A stretch of 35,321 nt of DNA from positions 1 to 35,321 of the IMG/VR virus record IMGVR_UViG_3300033145_000761. One strand, 5' to 3'. The notes under the pieces were generated by a model. It did no database searches. It had not been told where the DNA came from and saw nothing but the letters and a program-made list of their open reading frames with translations. A program made the position numbers and the translations under genes. This document shows positions 1,826 to 31,314 of the stretch, piece by piece. The stretch comes from a virus. The number at the start of each line of letters is the position of its first letter. Position 1 is the stretch's first letter.

Positions 1826-1888
1826 CTTATTACCTTTCGTTAATTTACCTTTTTATAAAACCATTTTAAATAGTTTCATAAAGAGATA

Positions 1889-1944
1889 GGGCGACATCAT
1901 CAGTGGCAAAAGCTATTTTTGTTTTACCTAAAGATGAGTCGCCC
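1889..1944 (-). other. Long interrupted hairpin between Cys-rich ORF and endolysin
   Basis: On the minus strand three collinear stems nest: GGGCGAC/GTCGCCC, then CATC/GATG, then GGTAAAA/TTTTGCC, around a loop of about 10 nt. It begins 3 bases after the stop of the Cys-rich ORF. The tract after it (TATCTCTTT) is only mildly U-rich, so it is a weak terminator at best and could equally be an RNA-processing or stability element upstream of the lysis genes. Confidence 0.6.
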
Positions 1945-1947
1945 GAG

Positions 1948-2112
1948 TTATTGTTCTGAGCATTGTTTACATACTCCCTCGATACATTTTTCTTCAATAT
2001 ATCGTTCTTGGCAAAATTCAGCATCGGAACATTTATGGCAATACTCTGTCTTGTTGGTTTTTTCATCAACACATCCGATAGTTTCTGAACATTTTTTGCA
2101 GACGATTAGCAT
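1948..2112 (-). CDS. Small Cys-rich zinc-ribbon-like protein
   Basis: This 54-residue ORF begins MLIVCKKCSETIG. Nine cysteines include three C-x2-C pairs (Cys5/8, Cys25/28, Cys48/51), typical of small treble-clef or zinc-ribbon proteins. The ATG lies 2 bases after the stop of the preceding 50-codon ORF, so translation is probably coupled. The conserved Cys spacing is the main evidence that it is real rather than noise; an overlapping 68-codon ORF in another frame (1866-2072) lacks any such pattern. Function unknown. It sits with small accessory genes just before the lysis cassette. Confidence 0.62.
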   Translation of the reverse strand: MLIVCKKCSETIGCVDEKTNKTEYCHKCSDAEFCQERYIEEKCIEGVCKQCSEQ

Positions 2113-12152: not shown

Positions 12153-12169
12153 ATATTAATAACTAACTC

Positions 12170-12211
12170 TTGCGCGCCAAGCATTAAAGGGTTTCCCGCC
12201 TCAACGCGCAA
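12170..12211 (-). other. Hairpin downstream of the capsid gene
   Basis: On the minus strand a 7-bp stem TTGCGCG/CGCGCAA (12205-12211 with 12170-12176) encloses a second small hairpin GGG-AAA-CCC (12189-12197). It begins 20 bases after the capsid stop. There is no T-run, so it is more likely an mRNA stability or processing element than an intrinsic terminator. Confidence 0.5.
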
Positions 12212-12231
12212 TTTGCTAAATATCAATCAGT

Positions 12232-14195: not shown

Positions 14196-14258
14196 ATAAA
14201 AAACGAGGGACAAAAAGCAAAGAATAATCTTTGATTTAAGTCCCTCGTCTTGTAGTGA
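14196..14258 (-). terminator. Hairpin/U-run element before the protease gene, copy 1
   Basis: The minus strand holds TCACTACAAGACG (14246-14258) leading into a 9-bp stem ACGAGGGAC/GTCCCTCGT (14240-14248 with 14203-14211), with an inner CAAAG/CTTTG hairpin, then TTTTTTATT and the ATG. By form it is an intrinsic terminator, but the protease start follows at once with no promoter visible. The 13-nt leader motif recurs in the element before the portal gene. TTAAGT/ACTTAA flanking the motif could form a competing hairpin. Confidence 0.75.
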
Positions 14259-14268
14259 ACTTAATATT

Positions 14269-16431
14269 TTATTTTAATACAGGAACAGTCGTGCATCTAC
14301 ATTGAGCATGAAGCGGCGGCTGTTCTACTTTTCCATAATCCATATTAATCGGCCGTTCAGCGTTGCCTGTGTATGAATCACCCTCATCAAAGAAATTTTT
14401 ATCAATACTAACAATCTTTCCATCCATTGGCGCGCAATAATCACATAATCTTTCATCTGGCGTTGTCAACCATTCTTTCGCTCTGACAACTTTTGATTGC
14501 TTGTATGCCTCAACTGTTGAGAAGTTAGAAGCCCTTGATACTTCCGTCCTCGCAATACTTTTTGCTCGCGTAATCCTTGCCGCTCTAAATATTCCTTTAA
14601 TTCTATTTCTGATTGTCGCTATATCCTCACCTGCTTCAGTTCCGGCCGCGATTGATTTTGATAATTTCTTTTTTGTCACTTTGTTAATTTCATTAGCAAA
14701 TTTCAATCCATCCTTTTCAAGAAATGTTGCCACTTCATTAACATCCATATCAAATCCCACTAAACCAAGTAATGCCATTGTATCATCACCATGCTCTTTT
14801 ACCAAACTTTCTATTATTGGTCTAAATGCCGCGATAGCTAATGTTGTTTCTGATTTTACATCAAATCTAATTGAAATACCGCCCTTTAATGTTGGCAATA
14901 CTCTTTTTTCCTGCGCTGTAAAATAATTTCTAACTTTTATTCTAAGTAAAGCTTCCTCACGATCTGCTCTTTTAATATGATTAATAGCGTATTTTTCTCT
15001 CTGCGCTTTATTAAAAAAATTCTTCTTTTTCTTTGTCTTTTTTATTTTCTTTGTCTTTTTTTTCTTTCCAAAAACTGATTTTGATAATTTTGTTAAACTA
15101 TCTTTAGCTTTATCAGTGACACTTTTTATAACATCATCAATTTTTTCCTGTGTTGTTCGTCTGCGCCTGATCATATTAAATTTAATACTCTTTTTCTTTT
15201 TAGGCGCTTTGCCAATCGGAATCATATTAACAGGCATATAAATTCCCTCGCCTCCCTCATACGCGGCATAGCCCTCTTGCTCTCTGATTTCATTAGGCGA
15301 CAACCAACCATTTTTTATTCCTGATTCGTAAACCTTTAACTGGCTTTCAATATCTCTAATAGTCGGATCGGCAAAGTCAAAAAACAATTCATCTTTTTCG
15401 TCAAAATCAGGCAGTAAAAATTCATTAAGATAAGATACAAATTTCTTATACTTCGGAATTATTGTATTTTTAACAAAAACACTTTCGTGCGTTTCAGCAA
15501 CAGCGCGGTTGACATCTTCCGCAATCATAATTCCCTTAGGAATACCAAACGCAACAAAAATTTCATCTCGACCAAACTTTCTTTGTTCAACAAAATCCAT
15601 ATCTTTTTGGCCAAAACCAATTTCTTTGAAATCCGCCGCAATTTTGTCATTATTTCCTCCCTCCAAAATAGCAATCCTGTTTGAATTCTCAACTCCACCA
15701 TGTCCAACTTCCCATTGTAATTGTAATCTTTTATATTGATCATCTGTCATCGTGCCGGGATAAATAACAACTCCATAAGGCTTTGCTGAATTCTTAAAAA
15801 AGTTAAAGTTCCACTTAGCCGCTTGTTTATCTGTTGAGATAGCATACTCAGCTGCCTTAACAGCCGATAGTCCACGATAAGGATTAAGAGGATTTGGATA
15901 TTTAAAATGTATAATCTCATCGGGCCCGAATGGAATTGTTTGATTTGTTCCCGGAACTGTATAAATATATCCTTTAACAAAAGTGTTCTTATCTGGAACA
16001 ACTGCCATATTAGGCGGTGATAGATATGGATAAATTGAAACAACATTGCCTTGCTCATCTTTAATTTTCCACCAAAAACATTCACCTGACATTTCCCAAA
16101 TTAATCCAGTATATTCAAATAAATCATATCGGGTCATATAGTTATTGACCCTATCAAGTAAATCTAAAACATCATGCGTTTTTTCTTCCTCAACATCACC
16201 TGCTTTTTTTCTTTTATAAAGTAATAGATTTATATTAGCGAATTCAGATGATATTTTTTTGGCGCAAGCATAAACCCAAGAATTATAAGAAGCAAGTTGC
16301 GCGGCCTGATCCATTGGCGCTGGTTCAGGCAATCCATAGGCCGCCGTTGGCGTAAAAGGAATTACCTTGCCCGGCTTGGCTTCTTTAATTCCAAGTATTC
16401 TTTGTTGTATAAATCTTTGAAATCCGTTCAT
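14269..16431 (-). CDS. Portal protein fused to a MuF-type C-terminal domain
   Basis: The product has 720 residues from the ATG at 16431; a longer frame uses a TTG inside the upstream hairpin and is rejected. Residues about 1-400 are an HK97-type portal (YNSWVYACAKKISSEFANI, IIHFKYPNPLNPYRGLSAV, FVAFGIPKGIM). A Lys-rich linker (about 410-470) leads to a Phage_Mu_F-like domain ending with ARTEVSRASNFSTVEAY, DERLCDYCAPMDG and LHAQCRC, a Cys/His cluster probably binding metal. The portal is the dodecameric DNA gate; MuF domains are minor head parts, usually a separate gene. No ribosome site precedes the ATG. Confidence 0.93.
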   Translation of the reverse strand: MNGFQRFIQQRILGIKEAKPGKVIPFTPTAAYGLPEPAPMDQAAQLASYNSWVYACAKKISSEFANINLLLYKRKKAGDVEEEKTHDVLDLLDRVNNYMTRYDLFEYTGLIWEMSGECFWWKIKDEQGNVVSIYPYLSPPNMAVVPDKNTFVKGYIYTVPGTNQTIPFGPDEIIHFKYPNPLNPYRGLSAVKAAEYAISTDKQAAKWNFNFFKNSAKPYGVVIYPGTMTDDQYKRLQLQWEVGHGGVENSNRIAILEGGNNDKIAADFKEIGFGQKDMDFVEQRKFGRDEIFVAFGIPKGIMIAEDVNRAVAETHESVFVKNTIIPKYKKFVSYLNEFLLPDFDEKDELFFDFADPTIRDIESQLKVYESGIKNGWLSPNEIREQEGYAAYEGGEGIYMPVNMIPIGKAPKKKKSIKFNMIRRRRTTQEKIDDVIKSVTDKAKDSLTKLSKSVFGKKKKTKKIKKTKKKKNFFNKAQREKYAINHIKRADREEALLRIKVRNYFTAQEKRVLPTLKGGISIRFDVKSETTLAIAAFRPIIESLVKEHGDDTMALLGLVGFDMDVNEVATFLEKDGLKFANEINKVTKKKLSKSIAAGTEAGEDIATIRNRIKGIFRAARITRAKSIARTEVSRASNFSTVEAYKQSKVVRAKEWLTTPDERLCDYCAPMDGKIVSIDKNFFDEGDSYTGNAERPINMDYGKVEQPPLHAQCRCTTVPVLK

Positions 16432-16437
16432 AAGAAT

Positions 16438-16484
16438 AAAAAAGGAGGCGCGCAAATACTTGCGAACCCCCCGTCTTGTAGTGA
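16438..16484 (-). terminator. Hairpin/U-run element before the portal gene, copy 2
   Basis: The minus strand carries TCACTACAAGACG (16472-16484), then GGGGG paired with CCTCC (16444-16448) around a CGCAA/TTGCG hairpin, then TTTTTTATTCTT directly before the portal ATG at 16431. Motif, hairpin, T6 and start codon occur in the same order as in copy 1 at 14196-14258. As a terminator it would cut off the head genes unless antiterminated. Confidence 0.75.
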
Positions 16485-16510
16485 GCCCTTTATTTAATTC
16501 TAATTCCTAT

Positions 16511-28899: not shown

Positions 28900-29393
28900 A
28901 ATTTTATTTCCACAGTCACAAAAGTATCATTTTTACTTCCGCCATGTGCTACGGCCATAATTTCAATAATTCTAAACCCGCGCGCTTTCCCAAATCCGTT
29001 TGTATTCCAACCAAACGAAATCGCGTATCCGCCTTTTTTAATTTTCTCACACATATTAGTTTTGATTATTTCGTAAAATTTCATACTCGCTTCCTCTTTT
29101 GTAAAATCCATTCCTAATTTTTTGTAATGTTCTTTAATTTGTGTGAATGAATATGGCGGGTCATATAAAATGCCGTGATATTTTCCTTCTAATTTGGCCG
29201 TAAAATCGCGCGCGTCCATACAATGCTTTGCTTTTCTTTCAGGATTATGGTCATTTGTTATCTCGGCAGGTGAAAATTTACCAGCAAACGGGTCTGAAAA
29301 TGTCCAAGCATTAGGCATCGCCCAGACACGACTAAATTTAATATCTAATTCCTCAAATTTTCCTTTATATAGTTGTGCTACTTTTTTGTTCAT
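28896..29393 (-). CDS. DNA adenine methyltransferase-like protein
   Basis: This 165-residue protein contains DPPYS at 78-82, the motif IV of DNA amino-methyltransferases, after ITNDHNPERKAKHCMDARDF (acidic and turn region) and with WAMPNAWTFSDPFAGKF near the start. This set (WAMPN.xTF, DPFA, TNDxNPE, DPPYS) is familiar from a small phage family annotated as adenine-specific methyltransferase. SAM loop DPFAGKF is shortened. It may protect phage DNA. The gene overlaps both neighbours by 4 bases (ATGA). Confidence 0.8.
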   Translation of the reverse strand: MNKKVAQLYKGKFEELDIKFSRVWAMPNAWTFSDPFAGKFSPAEITNDHNPERKAKHCMDARDFTAKLEGKYHGILYDPPYSFTQIKEHYKKLGMDFTKEEASMKFYEIIKTNMCEKIKKGGYAISFGWNTNGFGKARGFRIIEIMAVAHGGSKNDTFVTVEIKL

Positions 29394-30091
29394 TTCTTTA
29401 TCGCTTTAACAATATACCCAATCTCGTTGTGATCTATTCCGCTTTTTACCGGGTGCATCTTTTGGTCTGAATACCAGCCTTTAATATCTTGCTGACTATT
29501 CTGTGGAGGATCTTGATTATAGTCTATTTCGACTTTTTGTGTTCGCGCGCGTATTTCATCAATTTCAAATCCTGTTTCTGTTAATAATTTAATCACACCC
29601 CAACGAGTATATCTTAAAAAATCGTGGCCGGCTGGATTGTGATGTGGATATACGAAAGGGAATGAAATATAAAGAATTCCTTTATCTTTTAACATAAACT
29701 TTAAATTATTTATTGCCGTGCGAGGATCCAAAATATATTCCATTACTTCAAGACAAAATATTATATCAAAATTATAACAATCACCATCGCCTTTAATAAT
29801 AGGAAGTTTATCAACACCAACAATTTCATCACCACCACATCCCGGACAATCTATATATAATCCATTGTGTCCAACAAATCTATCGTATGATTTATTTAAA
29901 TCGCAAACAAAGTCAGGTTTTTGTTTCTGATCCTCTAACTCATTGTCTAATATCTTATACTCCCCTACATTCCAAAGTTTAACTCTGTCTTTAACTGGTA
30001 ACGCGCCGCCGCCAACATCAAGAACGCGATCAGCGCGAACCTCTAATCCTTTTAACCAATCCTCTAATTGTGTTCTAAAATATGAAGCCAT
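29390..30091 (-). CDS. SAM-dependent methyltransferase
   Basis: This 233-residue protein has motif I as VLDVGGGALPVKDRVKLWN (about 23-41), then YKILDNELE and later FDIIFCLEVMEYILDPRTAINNLKFML (motif IV and helix), and a large C-terminal part with HNPAGHDFLRYTRWGVIKLL, a feature of Methyltransf_11-type enzymes with 'HDFxRYT', common in glycan clusters. Cys81-Pro-Gly-Cys84-type segment DCPGCGGDE could bind metal. The gene has no Shine-Dalgarno and starts 11 bases after the structured element at 30103-30231. Confidence 0.84.
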   Translation of the reverse strand: MASYFRTQLEDWLKGLEVRADRVLDVGGGALPVKDRVKLWNVGEYKILDNELEDQKQKPDFVCDLNKSYDRFVGHNGLYIDCPGCGGDEIVGVDKLPIIKGDGDCYNFDIIFCLEVMEYILDPRTAINNLKFMLKDKGILYISFPFVYPHHNPAGHDFLRYTRWGVIKLLTETGFEIDEIRARTQKVEIDYNQDPPQNSQQDIKGWYSDQKMHPVKSGIDHNEIGYIVKAIKK

Positions 30092-30102
30092 AATTTTATT
30101 TA

Positions 30103-30231
30103 TTTAGGAAACTAATGGCCGAATATCAGAAGCCGGCAACATGAAGAGTATTTTAGACTCACCGGATAAACCAACTTCTGCCCGTCGGCCACAGGTTAAT
30201 AATCTACTTATCCGGCCGTTAGCTCCCTAAA
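30103..30231 (-). ncRNA. Structured 129-nt inverted-repeat element
   Basis: Its ends form a 19-position stem with one mismatch and a few G-T pairs: TTTAGG...GGCCG (30213-30231) with CGGCC...CCTAAA (30103-30121). The 90-nt interior holds further pairings such as CAGAAG/CTTCTG, GAGT/ACTC and CCGGATAA/TTATCCGG, the last competing with the outer stem. It fills the whole gap between the zinc-ribbon membrane gene and the methyltransferase gene and codes for nothing. Candidates are a regulatory or self-processing RNA, or a small inverted-repeat mobile element. No known class is recognised. Confidence 0.6.
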
Positions 30232-30232
30232 T

Positions 30233-30424
30233 TTATTTTTTAATTACATTTCTAAACTCACATCTTGGACAACCAAAATATCTCGTTGACAACCTCCAAA
30301 TTGAATAAAGTATGCCCGGAAAAATAAAACAACACCATAAAAAGATTTCTACTAAAAACGATCCTTGTGTTATTACTTTTCCTCTACCTATATATTTACA
30401 ATTTGGACATTCAATTTTTTTCAT
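30233..30424 (-). CDS. Small membrane zinc-ribbon protein (LITAF-like layout)
   Basis: In this 63-residue protein two C-x2-C knuckles, Cys6/Cys9 (ECPNCK) and Cys52/Cys55 (GCPRCE), flank one hydrophobic segment at about 24-44 (LVEIFLWCCFIFPGILYSIW). That is the layout of LITAF-type zinc ribbons, in which the hydrophobic stretch dips into a membrane. A perfect Shine-Dalgarno, AAGGAGGTGAT, lies at 30431-30441, and the ATG overlaps the upstream stop (ATGA), so expression is expected to be strong. Function unknown; membrane-located interference is a guess. Confidence 0.78.
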   Translation of the reverse strand: MKKIECPNCKYIGRGKVITQGSFLVEIFLWCCFIFPGILYSIWRLSTRYFGCPRCEFRNVIKK

Positions 30425-30879
30425 TTGTTAATCACCTCCTTAAAGATTTCTAAATACTCCGCGCCCATTTGCGTTATTGTATATGGCGTAATTTTCATTT
30501 TATCATCTAATCCAACACTGACATTTTTAGCAATTAATTCTGCCGTTCCACCCTCTCTATTCACTCCAACAACACGGCAACCACAAGCCATTGCTTCTGC
30601 AACAACATTCGGACACGCTTCTGCGAATGACGGATAAAGTAAAACATCACAAGATTTGTATAATTGAGCCATTCTTTCTGGTGTATGAAATATCCCCACA
30701 TATTCAACAATTCCATCTGTCGGTAGATCCCAATTATATTCAGGATGTTCTAAATAAATTTTTGGAACATTCCCGGCCACAATTAAATGAATATCATTAT
30801 CCATCCGCCAATCCATATCAAAAATATATAGTGTCTCATCAAATCTTTTATTCGGATTGTCGTTATAATTCACAGACAA
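30421..30879 (-). pseudogene. GT4 glycosyltransferase, C-terminal half (after in-frame TAA)
   Basis: These 152 codons continue in the same frame immediately after the TAA at 30880-30882. The first codon is TTG, which makes independent initiation unlikely. It carries the donor-binding half of a GT4 enzyme: MDWRMDNDIHLIVAGNVPK, GIFHTPERMAQLYKSCDVLLYPS, and EACPNVVAEAMACGCRVVG with E-x7-E. Without the N-terminal half it should be inactive. The conserved reading frame suggests the stop is recent, suppressed, or a sequencing error. Confidence 0.8.
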
Positions 30880-31314
30880 TTATGTTTTGCCATCGCTTTC
30901 CCGATCATCCTCGTTAAAAATTTCTGTATCAACTCCATTTGTTATCACAACGCCATTGCCGGCAAAATATCCGGCATAAGCAAACGCCCATTCGCTTTGA
31001 TAAACTACCGTATCAGCTAACTTGCCAAACTCTTTTAATCTCTCGGCCGGGCTTTGTCTTTTGTTTCTCGATCGGCGCGGAATATTATCAACTCTTAAAA
31101 CTAATTTTTTTCCTGCTTTGACTGCTTCGTGAATTTCGTTTTTATCAATCGTGGTAATTCCAAAGACAAAAACTATATCGCAATCCTGCCAAGTGCTGAC
31201 AAATTCAACTTCGTCTTTCAACGACTTTTTTAGATTGCGCAGGAAAGTAAAACCTCCGCCAATTGCTGTTTGTGAAATGTTAGGGATGTATATTTTTAAT
31301 TCTTTTTTGTTCAT
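30880..31314 (-). pseudogene. GT4 glycosyltransferase, N-terminal half (ends at in-frame TAA)
   Basis: These 144 residues start at the ATG overlapping the upstream stop (ATGA). They contain the acceptor-side Rossmann half: IYIPNISQTAIGGGFTFLRN, the phage/cell GT4 opening with GGG loop, DIVFVFGITT, VLRVDNIPRR, DTVVYQSEWAFAYAG and NGVDTEIFN, after which a GT4 linker is expected. The frame reads D-G-K-T then TAA then L-S-V-N-Y, and continues in-frame to 30421. The intact enzyme would have 297 residues. Confidence 0.82.

Follow-up and report, generated by a model that had tools for sequence, protein, structure and literature searches.

The gap upstream of the methyltransferase gene

The window, by which we mean the whole 35,321-nt stretch analysed, represents the 35.3-kb genome of a phage and has a terminal repeat of 63 bp; all of its 52 called genes lie on the minus strand. 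As shown in Table 1, a gene encoding 63 aa is followed by a methyltransferase (MT) gene, and the two are separated by a 141-nt noncoding gap (30092-30232) running from the stop codon of the 63-aa gene to the MT ATG. Read on the minus strand, the order is the TAA stop codon, a folded element of 131 nt, an A/T-rich linker of 10 nt and the ATG. The gap contains many stop codons and no ORF, in agreement with the initial annotation of this DNA, which had described a noncoding, gap-filling element followed by an ATG without a ribosome site. The latter point also holds: no Shine-Dalgarno (SD) sequence was found before the MT ATG, where the duplex with the anti-SD reaches only -1.7 kcal/mol. The SD of the 63-aa gene is the strongest among the called genes. 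SD-less starts are ordinary in this phage: over half of its 52 genes have one, also where no hairpin is present. The element lies in what we read as a glycosyltransferase-methyltransferase operon of the phage and would be transcribed within a polycistronic mRNA.

Table 1. Positions of genes, structural elements and pairing strands at the MT junction, in window coordinates.
Feature	Position	Strand	Remarks
Upstream gene, 63 aa	30233-30424	minus	zinc-ribbon-like, with a membrane segment; weak Pfam Pmp3 match
Folded noncoding element, 131 nt	30102-30232	minus (coding strand)	directly follows the upstream stop codon
P1, 5' strand, AUUUAGGGAGCUAA	30219-30232	minus	MFE; pair probability 0.98
P1, 3' strand, UUAGUUUCCUAAAU	30102-30115	minus	MFE; pair probability
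C.A mismatch between P1 and P1b	30218/30116	minus	
P1b, 5' strand, GGCCGGAUA	30209-30217	minus	pair probability 0.97
P1b, 3' strand, UAUUCGGCC	30117-30125	minus	pair probability 0.97
P2, hairpin CCUGU-GGCCG-ACGGG	30181-30195	minus	pair probability 0.99
P3, CAGAAGUUGGU ... GCCGGCUUCUG, apical hairpin	30127-30180	minus	11 bp; pair probability 1.00
P3 arms	30170-30180 and 30127-30137	minus	
UUAUCCGG, alternative partner of CCGGAUAA at 30208-30215	30162-30169	minus	competes with P1b
Linker, A/T-rich, AAATAAAATT	30092-30101	minus	from helix to ATG; without Shine-Dalgarno
Downstream gene, methyltransferase, Methyltransf_23	29390-30091	minus	

Several other features of the window were recorded. The upstream glycosyltransferase is present as two ORFs (30880-31314 and 30421-30879, minus strand) where relatives have a single intact gene; it is split by one in-frame TAA at 30880-30882, which is either a nonsense mutation or a sequencing error. 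A 37-nt repeat stands on both sides of the portal gene (14242-14278 and 16468-16504; 78% identical, core CACTACAAGACGRGGG), and its downstream copy is part of a terminator-like hairpin. At 1842-1981 (minus strand), a stretch made up of a 68-aa ORF and a short gap, a very stable fold of -46.6 kcal/mol is predicted although GC is only 34%.

Predicted structure of the element

Single-sequence structure prediction gave -55.2 kcal/mol (z -7.0) for the sense RNA of 30095-30235, that is the minus strand, and -34.6 kcal/mol (z -3.0) for the weaker fold of the plus strand. The relevant strand is thus the minus strand, which corrects the initial annotation. With a GC content of only 41%, the element has the lowest energy among all 140-nt stretches of the window on either strand. 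The predicted closing helix consists of 14 bp, a C.A mismatch and 9 bp, giving 23 pairs of which three are G.U. A long stem had been proposed earlier and is present, with this length instead of the 19 positions ascribed to it. It encloses two more helices of 5 and 11 bp in a predicted three-way junction, and the mean pair probabilities of the helices range from 0.97 to 1.00. The closing helix starts 0 nt from the upstream stop codon and ends 10 nt short of the MT ATG. As inverted repeats, its arms (30102-30125 / 30209-30232) are complementary at 20 of 24 positions and tie for the best 24-nt inverted repeat of the window (gap 20-300 nt).

Merely decayed DNA inverted repeats are expected to fold about equally on both strands. 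The sense strand of the element has an advantage of 19 kcal/mol, and this asymmetry was compared with 300 simulated palindromes carrying eight random transitions each, the structure being taken from the sense fold, which favours that strand. None of the 300 matched the advantage in that direction, and 0.7% matched it in either. Because simulated palindromes rarely match the asymmetry, the structure seems to have been shaped, or at any rate maintained, at the mRNA level.

Interior pairings competing with the outer stem had also been noted. One such pairing exists: CCGGATAA/TTATCCGG (30208-30215 / 30162-30169) is a perfect 8-nt inverted repeat, through which CCGGAUAA in the 5' arm pairs with UUAUCCGG 38 nt downstream. 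At equilibrium, however, it is 12 kcal/mol worse, with a mean pair probability of about 2e-8, and it could be relevant only as a co-transcriptional intermediate. When prefixes of the transcript were folded, an alternative 10-bp helix was predicted to form first and to be displaced once the 3' arm appeared. The pairing is no evidence of a switch, because 8-nt complements are no rarity in a sequence of 141 nt.

The junction in related phages and searches for homologues

Relatives were gathered with portal and methyltransferase profiles, which placed MT relatives in 47 loci; a terminase query yielded no relatives. In about 38 of 41 non-redundant relatives the upstream gene ends within about 25 nt of the MT start, and the overlapping ATGA form is frequent there. 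In L018, from a contig whose portal is 66% identical to that of the window, only an 8-nt linker separates the glycosyltransferase stop from the MT ATG, with neither the 63-aa gene nor the element. An empty site in a relative had been named beforehand as the prediction of a miniature element (MITE), and this junction is empty as predicted. Since this clearest empty site lacks the 63-aa gene as well, the insertion event is not cleanly dated.

The gene preceding MT varies among relatives and includes small membrane proteins, HNH/NUMOD3 endonucleases and others. HNH/NUMOD3 homing-endonuclease genes occupy the glycosyltransferase-methyltransferase junction at L033:2287-2931, L037:2526-2999 and L055:2472-3014, and homologues of the 63-aa gene in L036 and L037 sit elsewhere, before the glycosyltransferase. 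Because the contents of the junction are so variable, we regard it as insertion-prone and the element as a lineage-specific insert. Another relative carries a 157-nt noncoding insert at this junction (L040:2844-3000) with a 23-bp closing stem that extends from 2 nt after the stop to about 8 nt before the ATG. Its fold has a z of -3.8 (last 150 nt), and it had no Rfam match. The two inserts are not significantly similar in sequence (Smith-Waterman score 26 vs 21.8 +/- 3.1 for shuffles, maximum 28).

Two further noncoding stretches were seen among the relatives. Near the same junction, a 204-nt intergenic stretch (L056:2430-2633) folds at -61.6 kcal/mol and has no Rfam match. A 115-nt gap at L058:1046-1160 has a long near-perfect closing stem (AATGGGCGTAGAAT / ATTCTACGCCCATT) and MITE-like anatomy.

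A further hairpin separates the major capsid gene from a short lysine-rich 37-aa ORF (window 12155-12228, minus strand; L017:3589-3653; L020:4487-4549). It is kept in the three phages with much of its sequence changed (outer stem, internal loop, inner stem), and it ends a few bases upstream of an SD-less ATG. As a candidate conserved structured RNA, the capsid-gene hairpin is stronger than the element at 30102-30232.

No family was matched in Rfam 15 at the gathering threshold, and at a permissive E of up to 5 nothing but a chance snoRNA appeared. Searches with the models of the hatchet (RF02678) and twister-sister (RF02681) ribozymes returned nothing up to an E of 10. For the hatchet, true phage examples were fetched and the consensus was read from L009 and L010: the element shares the short string AACCUGUGG, the source of the hatchet lead, but has neither the conserved GUGCAGACGUUAAAAUCAGG strand nor the hatchet fold. 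These results bear out the earlier statement that the element belongs to no known RNA class. A covariance model of the element (R1) recovered the element itself at 181.7 bits and matched nothing else when run over about 50 records of related phages, among them whole contigs. BLAST found nothing significant in related records, only weak short matches in phages and nothing in plasmids. In IMG/VR, an exact 17-mer gave five chance matches on GC-rich contigs and a 19-mer gave zero; in IMG/VR and 84,980 genomes (GTDB) together, the end-repeat pattern gave three chance matches without a second arm. This absence is not absolute, as the sequences closest to the window may be missing from the collections and copies may exist in the host. 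No homologue that might show covariation was found in the collections searched or in the 50 related records. Readings of the element as a promoter or as an intrinsic terminator, for which a GC-rich hairpin with a U run behind it was sought, were rejected; neither has a site on the sense strand, which continues AAAUAAAAUU.

Origin and possible role of the element

The element has the size and anatomy of a bacterial MITE, being 131 nt long, within the limit of 200 bp, and noncoding, with terminal repeats that pair the 5' with the 3' end (PMC2229807). Correia/NEMIS elements of Neisseria are similar noncoding inserts of about 107-155 bp with terminal repeats of about 24 bp, and their transcript is a long stem proposed as an RNase III target (PMC2229807). 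ERIC/IRU/RU-1 elements of enterobacteria, about 127 bp, are likewise co-transcribed between genes, with a reported orientation-dependent effect on mRNA stability (PMC2229807). The accounts of bacterial MITEs in PMC2229807 and PMC2649163 include co-transcribed inserts with long stems between 5' and 3' ends, and RNase III or mRNA-stability functions have been proposed for such transcripts (PMC2229807). NEMIS differ, however, in being repeated in the genome, with TA ends and target duplications, and ERIC in forming a conserved repeat family. The element here has one copy in the window, and no further copy was found in IMG/VR, GTDB, plasmids or related records. Its ends, TTTAGG / CCTAAA, have no terminal TA dinucleotide, although TA ends are not common to all MITE families (PMC2229807). 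TAAA stands on both sides of 30103-30231, an identity of 4 nt expected at about 1% per fixed boundary; as a target duplication it is weak, since the flanks are low-complexity A/T and several boundaries are possible. The ends are MITE-like, as described earlier. Because no repeated copies were found and the TAAA duplication is weak, we do not claim MITE membership.

The reading we favour, though tentatively, is a lineage-specific, MITE-like noncoding insert in an insertion-prone junction, any effect of which would be exerted in cis on the processing or insulation of the mRNA. The insert would be transcribed as part of the polycistronic mRNA, and its RNA would form a long imperfect duplex capped by the three-way junction, between the stop and the SD-less start. 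This duplex may be cut by RNase III, for which the predicted length of 14 + 9 bp fits, or may shield the upstream message; in either case the fate of the 63-aa message would be separated from that of the methyltransferase message. Besides the MITE anatomy, a sense fold beyond that of shuffles and far better than the antisense one, the 8-nt linker of L018, the varied small genes and HNH/NUMOD3 genes of other relatives and the unrelated insert of L040 argue for an insert of probably mobile-like origin. Against it stand the lack of a second copy, the absence of the 63-aa gene at the empty site, the prediction from a single sequence and the bias of the strand simulation to the sense strand.

A genuine MITE, with its parent transposon and other copies in an unsequenced host, would account for the length, the 24-nt imperfect terminal repeats, the TAAA flanks and the empty junction of L018. 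We think it rather unlikely, given that no further copy was found anywhere searched, that the flanks allow several boundaries and that the strong strand asymmetry is unexpected for terminal repeats acting at the DNA level. Unlikely to a slightly greater degree is translational coupling bridged by structure, in which the helix draws the stop and the SD-less start to about 10 nt from each other, allowing terminating ribosomes or 30S subunits to reinitiate on the far side of the 141-nt gap. The spacing of the helix from stop and ATG agrees with it, as do the relatives in which the genes overlap or stand 8 nt apart, the same stop-helix-ATG anatomy built from unrelated sequence in L040, and the stop, hairpin and SD-less ATG at the junction of the capsid gene and the 37-aa ORF in three relatives; coupling efficiency is known to depend on the stop-start distance (PMC12548453). 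But this phage commonly uses SD-less starts, with or without hairpins, the upstream gene is not constant among relatives, ribosomes unwind helices, and no instance of such bridging was met in the literature searched. The intercistronic hairpin of f1 VII/IX also ends shortly upstream of the downstream start (PMC12548453); it differs in overlapping the upstream gene, where ribosomes unfold it, whereas the element here lies wholly past the stop codon. Bridging stays speculative, because starts without an SD are frequent here and few gaps have long closing helices.

The initial annotation had proposed a candidate novel RNA, such as a switch or a ribozyme. A self-contained functional RNA, be it a ribozyme, a riboswitch or a phage small RNA of a class not yet described, would suit the strong fold, the predicted multi-helix junction and the alternative helix of the transcript prefixes, and yet we consider it improbable. 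Of the covariance searches proposed at that time, the one against Rfam gave no meaningful match and the one over related phage records recovered only the element itself; neither homologues nor compensatory changes were found, and an internal complement of 8 nt is no rarity at this length. As no relative of the element was found, no new RNA class can be claimed, and this reading is unsupported rather than excluded.

It is more doubtful still that the lineage uses sequence-unrelated RNA bridges, from stop to SD-less start, by which translation passes over noncoding inserts; the examples would be the window element, the L040 insert and the conserved capsid-gene hairpin. If true, bridging would reveal a way in which phage operons withstand large noncoding insertions between genes that are coupled in translation. 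Should the element be no more than an insert, it is a record of an insertion-prone junction of environmental phages where homing endonucleases, small genes and folded noncoding inserts accumulate.
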